The position numbers and the translations under genes are program-made. Below, in pieces: positions 9,412 to 16,613 of a DNA stretch of 21,188 nucleotides (position 1 is its first letter; each line of letters opens with the position of its first letter). The notes under the pieces are model-generated. The model had not been told where the DNA came from. It saw only the letters and a program-made list of their open reading frames with translations, and did no database searches. This DNA comes from a virus. The DNA lies in the IMG/VR virus record IMGVR_UViG_3300009428_000095, positions 1 to 21,188 of that record. One strand, written 5' to 3'.

Positions 9412-12288
9412 ATGCCTACCATTACAGTAGACACTTCTATCGGACCTGTGAATTTTGAGATCGAAGGGGATTCGCCAAGTCCTATAGAATCAACTAGAAT
9501 CAATCGCATTCTGGCAGAAGAGATACCTGAAATGGTTTCCGAACAAAGAGTCGCAAGCGGTGCGTCTTCAGGAGAGTCGGAATTTGACACTGAAACTGGC
9601 ATTACAAACAACAAGCTAAGGCGACAACTTGCTGGCGCTGAGACAGCCACAGAAGAAGAAAATGTTCTTGGTCGTTTTGGGTTTCGAGAAGGCGACTATA
9701 CTAGAGACAATCGTGGCAATTTAGCGATTACGCCAGAAGGCGCACTTTTGCTCGGCATAGAGACAAACAAGCCCATCATGATAGATGAAAGCGGCTTTAG
9801 CTTGTCTGACTTGCAAGACTTTGTGGGTGCTGCTGGAGAAGAAGTTGTTGGTGGTATTGGCGGCGCTATCGCTGGTCAAGCTGCTATTCCTATCCCCATC
9901 TTAGGCGCTGCTATTGGCGCTGCTATTGGTGCTGGGGGAGGTAAGCTAGTTGAAGAGGGTGTAGAGACTCTGCGCGGAACTCAGGAACAAACACTTGGTG
10001 AGGTTGGTAAAGACGCACTTGTCGAGGCGGCTATTGCTGGCGCAGGTGAGGGTATCTTTGGGGTTGTTGCTAAGGGCTTTGGTGCCGTTGCGGGGCGTGG
10101 ACGTGTTGGAAGTAAGCTAGACCCTCAGACTCAAACGGATGTAGCTACATCAATTGAATCTGGATACAAACCGTCTTTGTCAGCAATGGGCGCAAACTCA
10201 CTCGTTTCAAGGCAGCAAGCTCTAGCTGAAAAGGCTTTGGGAACTTCCAAGAGGCTTCGTGAGAACCACGATCAGGTCATGACGGACTTGGGGAAATTGC
10301 GCTCTTACGGCGCAGATGGTGGTGTTGATATTGAAGCTACTGCGACAATTTTGACCAATGCTGTTGAGGCTGGTGATAACTTCGTCTTGCAGTCTGAAAG
10401 GATGGCATCTGAGAACCTGCTCAAACATATGGATGACATAGCTGTCAGCATGGGCAAGGTAGCCAAAAAAGACGGCTCCTTGGACGCTGACATACAAAAC
10501 GCATTTGTGGGGGCTTATAAGGCTTTTGATGACAAGGTTAAGGAAAAGTATGCCAATATTGAAAACCTCACAAACAGTGCTCTTGGTGACACTGCCTTGT
10601 TCAACACTCGCGGCCTGAAAGCTGACGCTAAGTTGGAATTAGACAGGCTGGTCGCGGCTAAGTCAGGTAATCTTGGTAAGTCCAGAATGGCTGTTGATGA
10701 GCTAATGAGCTTGCCAGACGATGCTTCATTTACTCAAGTCTACAAAGCCCGAAAAGCTCTTAATGACACATGGATGGACAGCAATTATGGCTCTGCCAGT
10801 GTAAAGTTAATGAAGGACAAGTTTTTAGACAAATTAGATGCTTTTGCGAGTCCTGATGCCGTCAAGAATGCAGTCCGAAGAAAAGCTGCTCGTGATCTCA
10901 CTACAGACGAGAAGCGTCTAATGGTAACGGTAGCTAAGGAGATTCCCAAAGCCAGAGAATTCTTCCAGCGTGGCATGAATAGCTTTGAGAAAGTTCGTGA
11001 CGCTGCCAGCTTGAAGAGCCTGAATAGCGCCGTAAAGGAGGGGAATGAGTTAAACCCCAAAAACGCGTTCAAGCGACTAATTCAGAATGACAATCCAAAG
11101 CTCCTCAAAGATGCTCGTCAGGTTCTGAAAGACGACATGTTCGAGCCATTGCGCGAACGTGCTGCTGGAGAATGGATGCGCAAAGCAATGCAAGATTCAG
11201 GCTCAACACTTGACGCAACAAAAAAGTTTAGTGGCAGCGTATTTAAACAAAAGTTAGATGCCCTTGGTAGTACAGCCGATGAATTGTTTGGTTCACAAAT
11301 AGGTCAGGTTCGCAAGCTCGCAGATCAATTAGACTCTTTGTCCCTGACCAGAGTAGATAAAAATGTAATTGACGACTTTATCGCTTCAGGTGGTGATGTA
11401 GCAGGTGTTGGACTTCTAAAAGACGTAAGAGATATTCTTGCAGAAAAAGTGCAGTTTGACAAAGCTGTTCTGGCAAGAAAGCTACGGGCTGGGTCATTGA
11501 TGCCAGATGAGGCGGCTGATTTATTGGCAAGCCCGTCGGTAAAGGGCAACGATATAACGAAGCTATCAAAGTTCTTCGATAATGCACCACAAGAAATGGC
11601 CGAGATTAGATCGTACTACATGCAGAATCTAATAGGTGACTTCGAGTCCAGTTTCATGACTGATAAGAAGGCTTTTAGGGCGCTTGCAGATCGACTTGTA
11701 AAGGCCAAAAAGTCTGGAAAACTAGACGCTATTTTCCCCAAGGAAGAAGCAGATGCAATAGAGTTGTTTGGGAAAAACATGCAAGTTCTTGGAAAGTCTG
11801 CCGAAGGCGGTGATTTGGTCGCCGCAAACATTGCAGCAAATCCACTTGAAAACATAGGAACAATTGCGCGACTGGGCCTAGTAGGTCAAGTTCTTTCCAC
11901 TGGTCCGTTTTACACGTCATTCGCTGCTAAATACGGAAAAGAAGCAGCAAAGGAAAAGACAAAAAAAGGAAAGATGCAGGTGTTTCTAAATGTGCTAAAT
12001 GACACTTCTCAGTCATTTGCGAAACAATCTACCGCTCGTGGTGCATATGGCGTGGGTTCAGCGGTGTCTGACGAAACTGACTTCCAAGTTGACAGGATCA
12101 AAAGCTCCCTAGTGCCGTCTTCACCATCTGTAAGCCGAACAAGTGTTCCAGTTCCTGAAGTCTCCCCGGTAAACGATATGTCAGTTACGCCATCAAGCCC
12201 TCAAGGTTCCATCAGGGAACGCGTAAGGGATAACCCAGCACTAGCTGCGTCATTATTAGGCGGACTTGATAACGTTGGATTTCTCTAG
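9412..12288 (+). CDS. Very large virion protein with glycine-zipper segments, 958 aa (ejection-type)
   Basis: This is the largest gene of the window and last of the virion operon. Residues 1-135 are acidic. Residues 144-175 are a strongly hydrophobic glycine-zipper stretch (GGIGGAIAGQAAIPIPILG, then AAIGAAIGAGGG), and a second Gly/Ala-rich segment lies at about 203-228 (EAAIAGAGEGIFGVVAKGFG). Residues 240-870 are almost all charged helix with coiled-coil spacing. The last 70 residues are Ser/Pro-rich. Large helical proteins with membrane-active segments at the end of a podovirus virion operon (T7 gp16, P22 gp16) are ejected and help carry DNA across the cell envelope. That role here is inference. 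No lytic transglycosylase motif is visible. Its TAG (12286-12288) shares CTAG with the stop of the opposing gene. Confidence 0.65.
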   Translation: MPTITVDTSIGPVNFEIEGDSPSPIESTRINRILAEEIPEMVSEQRVASGASSGESEFDTETGITNNKLRRQLAGAETATEEENVLGRFGFREGDYTRDNRGNLAITPEGALLLGIETNKPIMIDESGFSLSDLQDFVGAAGEEVVGGIGGAIAGQAAIPIPILGAAIGAAIGAGGGKLVEEGVETLRGTQEQTLGEVGKDALVEAAIAGAGEGIFGVVAKGFGAVAGRGRVGSKLDPQTQTDVATSIESGYKPSLSAMGANSLVSRQQALAEKALGTSKRLRENHDQVMTDLGKLRSYGADGGVDIEATATILTNAVEAGDNFVLQSERMASENLLKHMDDIAVSMGKVAKKDGSLDADIQNAFVGAYKAFDDKVKEKYANIENLTNSALGDTALFNTRGLKADAKLELDRLVAAKSGNLGKSRMAVDELMSLPDDASFTQVYKARKALNDTWMDSNYGSASVKLMKDKFLDKLDAFASPDAVKNAVRRKAARDLTTDEKRLMVTVAKEIPKAREFFQRGMNSFEKVRDAASLKSLNSAVKEGNELNPKNAFKRLIQNDNPKLLKDARQVLKDDMFEPLRERAAGEWMRKAMQDSGSTLDATKKFSGSVFKQKLDALGSTADELFGSQIGQVRKLADQLDSLSLTRVDKNVIDDFIASGGDVAGVGLLKDVRDILAEKVQFDKAVLARKLRAGSLMPDEAADLLASPSVKGNDITKLSKFFDNAPQEMAEIRSYYMQNLIGDFESSFMTDKKAFRALADRLVKAKKSGKLDAIFPKEEADAIELFGKNMQVLGKSAEGGDLVAANIAANPLENIGTIARLGLVGQVLSTGPFYTSFAAKYGKEAAKEKTKKGKMQVFLNVLNDTSQSFAKQSTARGAYGVGSAVSDETDFQVDRIKSSLVPSSPSVSRTSVPVPEVSPVNDMSVTPSSPQGSIRERVRDNPALAASLLGGLDNVGFL

Positions 12289-12500
12289 TCGTCAATGACA
12301 GATGCCAATCCACCGATCCCTGAAGCCGCAGGGGTCGTGTAGGCAGGCTTGACACTAAGATGAATGTTCTCGTATGTTTCTTCGATCATACGCGCAAGCT
12401 GACGACCAATCGCACGATCCTCGTGATCTGCAATAGCTACCAGCTTATCATATGCGTCTATCGAAACGCCTACGGACTTGTATTTTCCGGGGTTTGGCAT
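12285..12500 (-). CDS. Ribbon-helix-helix (Arc/CopG-type) transcription regulator candidate
   Basis: This is the only leftward gene in the window. The product is 71 aa. Residues 7-14 (YKSVGVSI) fit the DNA-contacting beta strand, residues 15-28 (AYDKLVAIADHEDR) helix A and residues 31-44 (IGRQLARMIEETYE) helix B of the RHH fold. The last 25 residues are an Ala/Gly/Pro-rich tail. RHH proteins act as dimers or higher forms on short direct or inverted repeats, usually as repressors. GAAGGA sits 6 bases upstream of the ATG, and a TTGACC-17-TATACA promoter lies inside the divergent nuclease gene. It stands between virion and replication operons, so control of one or both is a natural guess. The operator is not evident. 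A structural or toxin-antidote role is less likely. Confidence 0.7.
   Translation of the reverse strand: MPNPGKYKSVGVSIDAYDKLVAIADHEDRAIGRQLARMIEETYENIHLSVKPAYTTPAASGIGGLASVIDD
12315..12336 (+). terminator. Strong hairpin just past the virion operon, inside the antisense gene
   Basis: GATCCCTG (12315-12322) pairs with CAGGGGTC (12329-12336): eight pairs including one G-U, closing a six-base loop. It begins 27 bases after the stop of the 958-aa gene. There is no T run. It could slow or end rightward virion transcripts, while also encoding residues of the leftward regulator. Confidence 0.35.
12349..12378 (+). promoter_or_regulatory. Candidate rightward promoter antisense to the RHH gene
   Basis: TTGACA (12349-12354, perfect -35) is followed after 18 bases by TATGTT (12373-12378, four of six). 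A transcript from about 12385 would cross the regulator gene in antisense and enter the DUF1064-type nuclease gene. It is placed correctly to start the replication operon, but the -10 is weak. Confidence 0.3.
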
Positions 12501-13354: not shown

Positions 13355-14217
13355 TGGCTCTGCAAATCATCACAGCCGATCAGCGCCTTGCTGAAAAGAA
13401 AGGCCACAAGATTGTCGTATGTGGTTCAAGCGGTGTGGGTAAAACCACACTTGCTCGCACCCTCAACCCAGCAACCACCCTGTTCATGGACTTGGAAGCT
13501 GGAGATACGGCAATTGAAGGGCATCCTATCGACGTTGTGCGTCCTCGCACATGGGTGGAATGCCGCGACCTTGCGTGTTTCTTGGGCGGTGCGAATCCGT
13601 CACTGTCTGAAGACCAGCCATACGGCCAGTCGCATTATGATTATGTGGCCGCAATGTACGGTGATTCCTCAGACGTGTGGAGCAAGTACGATACGCTGTT
13701 TGTGGACTCTATCACTGTAGCGGGTCGTTTGTGCTTCCAGTGGTGCTTACAGCAGCCTGAGACGCGCTCTGAGCGGTCTGGTAAGGTTGATACACGCGCA
13801 GCCTACGGAATGCACGGACGCGAGATGATGTCGTGGCTCACGCACATCCAGCACATCCGATCAAAGAACGTGATCTTTGTTGGCATTCTAGACGAGATCA
13901 CTGACGATTATGGTCGCAAGCAATACAACATGCAGATCGAAGGTGCCAAGACTGGACGTGCATTGCCCGGTATTGTTGATGAAGTGATCACTATGGCAGT
14001 TCTGACAGGTGATCATGGGCAGTATCGTGCCTTTGTATGTCAACCTCTGAACGAATGGGGCTATCCAGCCAAAGACCGTTCTGGCAGATTAGACGTTCTC
14101 GAAGAGCCGCATCTTGGCAAGCTGATTGAAAAGATGAATAACGGCTCACCATTAACCGACAATGATCTAACATTTGTCGATCCCACAACTCAAACTTCTA
14201 GCGAAGGAGAAGCATAA
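13354..14217 (+). CDS. Sak4-type RecA-like ATPase (single-strand annealing/recombination)
   Basis: The product is 287 aa. Walker A is GSSGVGKTT (residues 24-32) and Walker B is YDTLFVDSIT (112-121). LFMDLEAGDTAI (43-54) follows the P-loop, as in the phage AAA_24/Sak4 group. KNVIFVGILDEITDDYGRK and the Gly-rich PGIVDEV come late, where the family has its sensor strands. It is shorter than bacterial RecA, with a bare ATPase core, which is normal for Sak4. These proteins are Rad51-like and promote annealing or strand exchange together with a phage single-strand-binding protein. Exactly such a gene follows, coupled by TAATG, and a Cas4-like nuclease lies downstream. The function is therefore well supported by both sequence and context. 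Confidence 0.85.
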   Translation: MALQIITADQRLAEKKGHKIVVCGSSGVGKTTLARTLNPATTLFMDLEAGDTAIEGHPIDVVRPRTWVECRDLACFLGGANPSLSEDQPYGQSHYDYVAAMYGDSSDVWSKYDTLFVDSITVAGRLCFQWCLQQPETRSERSGKVDTRAAYGMHGREMMSWLTHIQHIRSKNVIFVGILDEITDDYGRKQYNMQIEGAKTGRALPGIVDEVITMAVLTGDHGQYRAFVCQPLNEWGYPAKDRSGRLDVLEEPHLGKLIEKMNNGSPLTDNDLTFVDPTTQTSSEGEA

Positions 14218-14834
14218 TGCTTAATTTCAATAATGTACCCGTAGACGAAAACCCAATGAACCAAGAGTTCAGCCTAATCCCGAACGGCACAGTTGCTCGC
14301 GCAGTTGTCCTCGCTCAGATGGGCGACATTGAACTTCCTGAGTTCGGTCAGGGCCAATGGTTCAAGCGATCCGCAAGCACAGCGGCCAAGTGGATGAATC
14401 TTGAATTTGCCATTATTGGCGGTGAGTTTGATCGTCGCAAGTTCTGGCACAGCATCTTTGTTGATGGCGACAAGATTGGCCCAAGCGGTATGCCTCTTGC
14501 CAAAGAGATTGGCCTGCGCACACTCAAGTCAATTGTTGAAAGCGCACGTAACATTGATCCTGCGGATATGTCGCCACAGGCCCAGCAGAACCGCAACATT
14601 AGCGGAATGATGGACTTGAGTGGCATGGAGATTTGTGCCAAAATCGGCGTCAAGAAAGGCACAAACGGTTACAAAGACAGTAATCAGTTGATGGCCGCTC
14701 TTACGCCTAATAATAGTGAATTCCTGCCCCAAGGAAGCATCCCGCCGCAGCAAACACCCGCTGCCTCCACGTATGCTCCTCCACAAGCTCCTGCGCAAAA
14801 TAGCGGCGCAGTTCCTTCTTGGGCGCAGAAATAA
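14217..14834 (+). CDS. Single-stranded DNA-binding-like protein (DUF669-like)
   Basis: The product is 205 aa, coupled to the Sak4-like gene. Residues 15-100 have alternating strands with aromatic and basic residues (GQWFKRSASTAAKWMNLEF, GEFDRRKFWHSIFVDG), consistent with an OB-type fold. GMPLAKEIGLRTLKSI is a helix. GMEICAKIGVKKGTNGYKD returns to beta structure. From residue 170 the protein is a flexible Pro/Gln/Ala tail ending VPSWAQK. Proteins of the DUF669 kind occur next to Sak4-type recombinases and act as the phage SSB. The tail resembles the linker of SSB proteins but lacks the usual acidic tip, so host-partner binding may differ. Family assignment is from pattern memory and neighbourhood. 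Confidence 0.7.
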   Translation: MLNFNNVPVDENPMNQEFSLIPNGTVARAVVLAQMGDIELPEFGQGQWFKRSASTAAKWMNLEFAIIGGEFDRRKFWHSIFVDGDKIGPSGMPLAKEIGLRTLKSIVESARNIDPADMSPQAQQNRNISGMMDLSGMEICAKIGVKKGTNGYKDSNQLMAALTPNNSEFLPQGSIPPQQTPAASTYAPPQAPAQNSGAVPSWAQK

Positions 14835-14836
14835 CA

Positions 14837-14917
14837 TAGCGGCAAGGCCATTCCGCGCCTGCTAGAACACGGACGGGGGGCCGTGGCCGCTAATCCCCCC
14901 ATTTTACTATTCTAGCA
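14837..14917 (+). promoter_or_regulatory. Structured spacer with nested stems and possible pseudoknot
   Basis: The 96-base gap before the helicase holds three exact pairings. TGCTAGAA (14860-14867) pairs with TTCTAGCA (14910-14917). Nested inside, GGGGGG (14875-14880) pairs with CCCCCC (14895-14900) around a 14-base loop. TAGCGGC (14837-14843) is complementary to GCCGCTA (14886-14892) within that loop, which would make a pseudoknot. ATTTTACTATT follows the C run. It may be a terminator/attenuator, a translation control element for the helicase, whose own ribosome site is weak, or a replication signal. Confidence 0.5.
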
Positions 14918-14930
14918 AATAGGTATAATT

Positions 14931-16613
14931 ATGTTGCTCAGACCCTATCAAGAGGTAGCTGTCTCCGACGCATGTAAAGCGTTAGACAAGCACAAGAACA
15001 CTCTCGTTGTCGCTCCCACAGGTGCTGGCAAAACCATCATGCTTTCTGCTCTCGTTGGCAAACGCCACAAAAAAGGCAAACGCATTCTGGTCATCCAGCA
15101 CAGAGATGAATTGGTGACGCAAAACGAGGCTAAGTTCAAAAAGGTTAACCCGTACATCACTACAAGCATTGTAAACGGAACAGTCAAGCACTGGGACGGT
15201 GATGCCATTTTCTCGATGGTTCAAACAATGTCTCGTGATCGCAACCTGCGTGACCGACCTGTATTTGACATGGTTGTGGTCGATGAGGGCCACCATGCGG
15301 CTGCTGACACCTATCGTAAGGTCATCGACGCCGTTCGCATGGATAACGAAAACGCTGAGATCGTAGGCTTTACTGCAACGCCCAACCGTGGTGATGGCAA
15401 AGGTTTGCGGGAGGTGTTCAATAACTGCGCACACCAGATTGAAATGGCGACTTTAATCCGTGAAGGGTTTTTAGTCCGTCCAAAGTCATACGTTGTTGAC
15501 CTTGGCGTAAACGATCAACTCGACAGCGTGACCCGCCGTGGCAAAGAGTATGACATGGAAGAGGTCGCGGCCATTATGGATCGCCGCGTGATTAACGAGC
15601 GCATCGTAGACGAGTGGCAAGAGAAGGCAGGGGATCGCAAGACCGTTGTGTTCTGCTCAACAGTCGCTCACGCCGAACACGTCTGCGAGGCTTTCCTGCG
15701 CGCTGGGATCAAAGCTGATTTTGTGACAGGCGAAACGCCCAAAGACGAACGCGCTAAGATGCTGCACGATCTTGAGTTTGGCGACATGCAAGTGATCGTA
15801 AACGTCATGGTTCTGACAGAGGGCTTTGACGCGCCGCCAGTGGCTTGCATCGTACTAACGCGCCCATGCTCACAAAAGGGCACAATGGTTCAGATGATTG
15901 GGCGTGGACTGCGCATCGTTGATCCTGAGCTATACCCAAACACGATCAAGACTGATTGCGTGGTTCTGGACTTTGGCACATCAATCATTACGCACGGCGC
16001 TCTTGACGAGACAGCCAACTTGGATGGCGCTGTCAAAACAGGCGAGGAGGGCGAAGCTCCAACGAAAGTATGCCCTAATTGCGACAGCGAAGTTGCAGCA
16101 AACACGCGCACCTGTCCGATATGCGAACATGTGTTCGAGTCTAGAGAAAAGAGCGAACTATCAGATTTCGTAATGACAGAATACGATCTAATGCAGCTAT
16201 CCCCGTTCATGTGGATTGACCCGTATGGGTACGGCACTGCTATGATGGCTACAGGCTTTAACGGATTCTCTTTGGTCGGCAAGGTAGGTGACTACTGGAT
16301 CGCTATCGTGAAGGCTCAGACAGGACGTGCGCGAGTAGTGTCTATTGGTGAGAAGGTTCAAGCTATGGCTGCGGCTGATGACTTCCTGCGGGAGATCGAA
16401 GACAGCACGGCTGCGAACAAGTCTAAGCGCTGGCTGAACCAAGCCGCATCGCCAAAGCAAAAAGAATTACTGCGCAAGAACGGTGTGCAGGTAAGTGAAA
16501 TGGATTTCTCATGGACAAAGTACAAAGCTGCTTGTTGTTTGGGCTACTACTTTAACCGCAAACAGATTGATCAGATTATCGCAGATCAGCACAAGAAACT
16601 AATTGGAGAATAA
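14931..16613 (+). CDS. SF2 DEAD/DEAH-like helicase with C-terminal zinc ribbon
   Basis: The product is 560 aa. It opens with LRPYQ (Q-motif-like). Motif I is APTGAGKT (28-35), motif II DEGHH (118-122) and motif III FTATP (147-151). The second RecA fold has TVVFCSTVAHA (238-247), LTEGFDAP (295-302, motif V) and QMIGRGLR (321-328, motif VI with the arginine finger). A zinc ribbon follows, CPNC (381-384) and CPIC (395-398). The remaining 160 residues are an unclassified domain. It resembles phage and RecG/UvrB-like ATP-dependent DNA helicases of the 'type III restriction/DEAD' group. In a Sak4/SSB/nuclease operon it would unwind DNA for replication or recombination. Only AGG at 14921-14923 precedes the ATG, so initiation may be weak or controlled by the structured spacer. 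Confidence 0.85.
   Translation: MLLRPYQEVAVSDACKALDKHKNTLVVAPTGAGKTIMLSALVGKRHKKGKRILVIQHRDELVTQNEAKFKKVNPYITTSIVNGTVKHWDGDAIFSMVQTMSRDRNLRDRPVFDMVVVDEGHHAAADTYRKVIDAVRMDNENAEIVGFTATPNRGDGKGLREVFNNCAHQIEMATLIREGFLVRPKSYVVDLGVNDQLDSVTRRGKEYDMEEVAAIMDRRVINERIVDEWQEKAGDRKTVVFCSTVAHAEHVCEAFLRAGIKADFVTGETPKDERAKMLHDLEFGDMQVIVNVMVLTEGFDAPPVACIVLTRPCSQKGTMVQMIGRGLRIVDPELYPNTIKTDCVVLDFGTSIITHGALDETANLDGAVKTGEEGEAPTKVCPNCDSEVAANTRTCPICEHVFESREKSELSDFVMTEYDLMQLSPFMWIDPYGYGTAMMATGFNGFSLVGKVGDYWIAIVKAQTGRARVVSIGEKVQAMAAADDFLREIEDSTAANKSKRWLNQAASPKQKELLRKNGVQVSEMDFSWTKYKAACCLGYYFNRKQIDQIIADQHKKLIGE

Follow-up and report, generated by a model that had tools for sequence, protein, structure and literature searches.

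What is encoded in the short gap that separates an ssb-like gene from a helicase gene in an uncultured marine phage, and on which of its neighbours does it act? This gap belongs to a virus record with podovirus-type genes (IMG/VR record IMGVR_UViG_3300009428_000095, positions 1 to 21,188; hereafter, "the window" refers to this whole stretch of 21,188 bases). It runs from 14835 to 14930, i.e. about 90 bases between the end of the ssb-like gene (14834) and the start of the helicase gene (14931). An original prediction had placed a nested hairpin with a possible pseudoknot there, and had proposed that it regulates the helicase, forms a stable RNA or marks an origin.

Genes flanking the gap

The gene upstream of the gap (14217–14834, + strand) encodes an SSB-like OB-fold protein of phrog_2300 (PHROG match, E = 1.6e-26), and its TAA stop lies 1–2 bases 5' of the element described below. 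The AlphaFold model of the product (pLDDT 77) was compared with the PDB, where the top match was the OB-fold of PrgE (E = 2e-5), followed by RPA and bacterial SSBs. The gene adjoins a Sak4 gene, and phages with Sak4 often have their own SSB (PMC5928155). From these OB-fold matches and this association, we infer that the phrog_2300 protein is probably a phage SSB. The 5' neighbours are, in order, a DUF1064-type resolvase, a phrog_2480 protein, the Sak4 annealing protein and the phrog_2300 protein. Downstream, the gap is followed by an SF2-type DNA helicase gene (14931–16613, + strand; phrog_16, E = 4.5e-103), then by DUF6378, PD-(D/E)XK and primase-type genes.

For the helicase gene, only a weak ribosome site had been described. 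Read directly in the leader (14918–14930, + strand), it is AATAGG, with 7 bases between the end of its AGG (14921–14923) and the ATG, and is thus modest rather than absent. The region from 14901 to 14930 is about 80% A+U. No terminator or promoter was found on the + strand between 14100 and 15100, and the gap was therefore not retained as an intrinsic terminator or promoter. The GC skew of the window is slightly negative at 14001–15500 only. Elsewhere, at 12285–12500 on the - strand, an ORF of 71 amino acids (MPNPGKYKSVGVSIDAYDKL...) lies among plus-strand genes and possibly encodes a small repressor-like protein.

Complementary strands and crossing helices

The three exact complements of 8, 6 and 7 bp reported within 81 bases were all recovered in place. 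The 7-bp complement associates TAGCGGC (14837–14843) with GCCGCTA (14886–14892), the 8-bp complement TGCTAGAA (14860–14867) with TTCTAGCA (14910–14917), and the 6-bp complement GGGGGG (14875–14880) with CCCCCC (14895–14900). When the segment was dinucleotide-shuffled 20,000 times, a non-overlapping set of 8+7+6 exact complements arose only 5 times, and no 81-base position of the 21-kb window other than 14837 presents one. Two further stems were identified: CACGG/CCGTG (14868–14872 with 14881–14885), whose loop holds the G-run, and AGGC/GCCT (14845–14848 with 14857–14860), within the 5' part.

Taken together, these strands delimit an element extending from 14836 to 14917 on the + strand, as are all its parts. 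It opens with the 5' strand of helix P1 (TAGCGGC, core CGGC) and continues with hairpin P1a (AGGC-CATTCCGC-GCCT, 14845–14860) and a CTAG-containing strand (GCTAGA, 14861–14866). The stem-loop P3 follows (CACGG-AC-GGGGGG-CCGTG, 14868–14885), the G-run of its loop being the 5' strand of the pseudoknot helix. Then come the 3' strand of P1, the C-run, which forms the 3' strand of the pseudoknot helix, and a last CTAG strand (TCTAGC, 14911–14916), the 3' strand of helix P2. When only nested folds are allowed, the gap is unremarkable (z = -0.58), because the helices cross and the best structure is pseudoknotted. The hairpin and the pseudoknot of the original prediction are thus strongly supported, but as interlocked helices with a topology resembling that of the hepatitis delta virus (HDV) ribozyme, not as one nested hairpin.

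Presence in relatives

Using the helicase and ssb-like proteins as queries against IMG/VR, we obtained several hundred overlapping loci. One copy of the element was found in each of the 386 (overlapping) loci that include the helicase preceded by 140 bases or more; the loci without the element are those cut off by contig ends. Part of the loci had been collected by scanning for a pattern of the element and are biased, but the protein-based sets agree. Ten longer records, of 32–56 kb, also contain one copy each. In all, 62 distinct variants of the element were found among relatives, and a covariance model scores the copy in the window at 100–112 bits (E about 1e-21 to 1e-29).

In all variants, the element begins 0–4 bases past the stop of the ssb-like gene, and a ribosome site always lies 3' of it. 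This ribosome site belongs either to the helicase gene or to a PD-(D/E)XK ORF inserted between the element and the helicase gene (59 of 386 loci). Translation past the ssb stop, by a programmed frameshift or by readthrough, was considered and rejected: the gap lengths of 97–107 (without insertion) break the frame, and the element of some relatives, e.g. L008, contains in-frame stops.

The inserted ORF (Pfam PDDEXK_14, PF24579) is small, has its own ribosome site and is located just past the 3' CTAG copy. The insertions, which concern about 15% of the loci (among them L025, L220, L274 and L325), occur in both clades and sit beside near-identical empty versions (L325 vs. L268, L274 vs. L256). 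This ORF looks like a free-standing homing endonuclease.

No close relative was found among annotated phage records. Among more distant relatives, the element is absent from the Manatee Spring podovirus (helicase 37%), whose gap has a terminator-like hairpin, and from AcaML1 and Wolbachia WO, in which the ssb-like gene is followed by almost no gap. The element therefore seems to be restricted to the phage group studied here. A scan of a genome collection gave a single host-side match, on a contig in a Rhodobacteraceae MAG, which is a weak hint of the host.

Covariation and conservation

Pairs were counted in an alignment of 37 rows built with a covariance model (A7), MAFFT alone misaligning the 3' strand of P1. 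Standard pairs represent 97.9% of the pair cells. Changes on both sides concern 7 pairs and 22 cells, compared with a mean of 2.4 cells after shuffling, and none of 500 shuffles reached 22. In controls where the partners were slid, pairing was far lower than with the true partners. Four helices are backed by compensatory changes, namely P1, P1a, P3 and the pseudoknot helix in which the P3 loop pairs with the C's further downstream. In P1, GC changes to AU and CG to UA, and the core CGGC/GCCG is replaced by TGGC/GCCA, CGAC/GTCG or CGC/GCG (the latter in L383). P1a appears as RGGC/GCCY in clade I, with G-U, A-U and G-C alternatives, as CAGGT/ACCTG in clade II, and also as AGGCT/AGCCT and others. 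For P3, 13 perfectly complementary helices occur among the 62 variants, and in clade I four of the five pairs change on both sides. The pseudoknot helix varies from 5 to 7 bp, in the versions G6/C6, G5/C5, GGGGAG/CTCCCC, GAGGGG/CCCCTC and GGGGGAG/CTCCCCC. Compensatory changes and presence in relatives, on which the original prediction had made itself depend, were thus both found, the element being in all relatives with sufficient sequence.

Read on the + strand, the alignment contains 24 G-U cells and no A-C cell, which indicates an RNA of the + strand. Mean identity is 0.84 in the element vs. 0.50 at the third codon positions of the ssb-like gene. In the helicase gene, conservation at the third codon position is slightly higher over the first 10 codons (0.62 vs. 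about 0.45) and not further in. On the basis of these sequence comparisons, the gap almost certainly encodes a conserved structured RNA.

These data also bear on a role as DNA, either as a folded single strand in replication (origin, primase site) or as the target of a DNA-binding protein. Replication and recombination genes surround the element, and the STAXI motifs found near SSB genes were once proposed to act as single-stranded DNA (PMC2864571). However, the G-U and A-C counts point to + strand RNA, the element is single copy with no iteron-type repeats noted, and a stop codon and a ribosome site enclose it closely. A DNA role is thus extremely improbable, and the proposal that the gap marks an origin found no support and was rejected.

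CTAG strands and possible alternative folds

Each element has three CTAG-type strands, at its 5' end, middle and 3' end (14837, 14862 and 14912 in the window). The 5' copy of the window is ATAG instead of CTAG, the sole such variant. The middle copy, which never varies, can pair with the 3' copy, forming P2 and the HDV-like topology, or with the 5' copy, forming the alternative stem P0, which is preferred in clade II when only nested folds are allowed. It was required by our search expression, but the gap lists from the protein-based sets show it too. No covariation of the CTAG pairings was observed among the 62 variants; for P2, this is because the CTAG strands are invariant. The sequences are consistent with P2 (CTAG/CTAG).

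The 3' copy is invariant in most variants, and as a partner it is kept in 58 of 62. It is degenerate or lost in L218, L382, L387 and L389, where the 5' and middle copies stay, and P2 is lost in L382, L387 and L389. Such a loss is what would be expected of mutually exclusive pairings, though it is not proof of them. An elaborate reading would be an undescribed RNA class, i.e. a double pseudoknot of HDV topology with three self-complementary CUAG strands, the middle one pairing either with the 5' copy, near the ssb stop, or with the 3' copy, near the following ribosome site. The change from one fold to the other would be driven by ribosomes at the ssb stop, or by bound SSB, and would so set the SSB:helicase ratio. 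We consider this switch unlikely.

Another pairing was noticed by eye in clade II (e.g. L354, L368, L379, L408 and L409), where the P1a loop complements the ribosome site of the helicase gene (ACUCC/GGAGU), the two sides differing jointly in L379, L408 and L409 (UCCAC/GUGGA). Loop swaps between members gave nearly the same energy, 16 of 200 being as good, and no such match was found in clade I. This pairing is therefore only a lead.

Comparison with known RNA families

No match was found in Rfam 15 at the gathering score, nor up to E = 10 for positions 14750–15000 or up to E = 1 for four divergent relatives. A limited search of papers revealed no description of the element.

In topology, the closest likeness lies with HDV-like ribozymes, namely the P4-less minimal ones and the theta ribozymes of phages. 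They share with the element the strand order P1, P2, P3, P1.1, P3', P1', P1.1', P2' and a nested double pseudoknot with P4 absent, and both occur in Caudoviricetes. A self-cleaving ribozyme related to this group, cutting the message between ssb and helicase, would account for the order and crossing of the helices, which are those of minimal phage ribozymes (PMC10879173). However, HDV-like ribozymes need J4/2 to begin with a catalytic cytosine (PMC10879173), and this position is not conserved in the element. The stretch from the C-run to the 3' CTAG copy has no common C or CNRA, and in L397 (CCCCCC-AAATTTCTAG) it is without any C. Moreover, the helix formed by the loop, which would correspond to P1.1, has 5–7 bp instead of 1–2, with G in the loop strand. 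The element also differs by the extra hairpin P1a, by the lack of a nearby tRNA and by the loss of P2 in some members, and neither the window nor the four divergent relatives match the Rfam ribozyme models. Because the catalytic cytosine position is not conserved, we did not file the element under HDV-like ribozymes in spite of the fitting topology, and a cutting activity is very improbable.

Three other systems show a likeness of context. The operator of T4 gene 32 also concerns a phage gene of the SSB family, with a pseudoknot a few tens of bases before a ribosome site. In T4, this pseudoknot nucleates the binding of SSB, which spreads over the A+U-rich ribosome site (PMC3014915); in the window, the leader in between is A+U-rich, clade II leaders clearly less so. 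However, the T4 operator lies ahead of ssb, whereas the element follows ssb and precedes the helicase gene or the PD-(D/E)XK ORF in all loci; the element has a larger fold and an unrelated sequence, and its binding by SSB is putative. The STAXI motif (RF01728) is also a pseudoknot RNA near SSB-type genes, but it consists of two or three tandem pseudoknots in Enterobacteriales, whereas the element occurs once per locus and record and has no Rfam match. Finally, the L17 downstream element and other 3'-UTR regulatory RNAs are structured and directly follow the gene of a nucleic-acid-binding protein; their structure and host are unrelated to those of the element, which is followed at once by the next gene's ribosome site. 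We class the element as a new phage pseudoknot RNA element.

Possible functions at the ssb-helicase junction

We consider it likely that the element acts in cis on its own mRNA. The opposite case, in which it would be excised or separately transcribed and work in trans as a small RNA (e.g. against host defence, or on RNA polymerase), could draw on a sequence conservation beyond the need of a roadblock and on the single copy per genome. However, no + strand promoter or terminator-like site surrounds the element, and it is always exactly at the ssb junction and nowhere else in the records examined. The proposed stable RNA is therefore kept only as an improbable rival, acting in trans.

The reading that we favour, with a probability of roughly 45%, is that of a conserved + strand RNA in the ssb-helicase mRNA, acting in cis, with a translational operator or insulator as its most likely role, and perhaps bound by SSB. 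It is favoured because the layout in the window, with a knot and then about 80% A+U, resembles that of the T4 gene 32 operator, although the gene that follows is here the helicase gene. Since a ribosome on the ssb stop would cover the 5' strand of P1, the full fold would form only after this ribosome leaves. The completed knot would then lie immediately 5' of the ribosome site, some 30 bases from the next start codon; in the window, about 30 bases separate the end of the C-run from the helicase start. That the main effect is on the translation of the next ORF has, in our view, somewhat less than an even chance. The SSB protein would be a plausible ligand by analogy with the T4 gene 32 operator, but we hold its being the actual one as doubtful. 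As counterpoints to an operator, the A+U-richness of the leader does not extend to clade II, where it is clearly lower, and the CTAG pairings never covary.

Regulation of the helicase, as first proposed, is a plausible idea, but a link to the helicase alone is unsupported, as the element hugs the ssb stop and stays when an ORF is inserted. Since the PD-(D/E)XK ORF intervenes in 59 loci, direct control of the helicase would not hold for all of them. The ssb stop is so close that an effect on the upstream message can be argued as easily. The main rival is thus a 3'-UTR element of the ssb-like gene, whose knot would shield the ssb message from 3' exonucleases or separate the messages (retroregulation), with little direct effect on the helicase. 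Consistent with it are the distance of 0–4 bases from the stop in all variants, the swappable downstream partner and the very stable G-C pseudoknot (about -12 kcal/mol for the G6/C6 stack). Moreover, a phage precedent for 3' elements regulating upstream genes is mentioned by Weinberg et al. (PMC2864571). However, a simple GC hairpin would suffice for such a role, while the conserved loops, the CTAG copies and the complex fold suggest specific recognition, and no cleavage site was identified. Overall, this rival appears rather unlikely.

The structure of the element is near certain, and its function is probably to help control the making of replication proteins, as inferred from its position and likenesses. 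In these uncultured marine phages, it would represent a second pseudoknot, an unrelated one, tied to an SSB-like gene. Even without an operator role, it would remain a strongly conserved RNA of HDV-like topology with no Rfam family, and hence a defined RNA to probe. The covarying set of 62 variants is large enough to serve as the seed of a covariance model and of a family entry.
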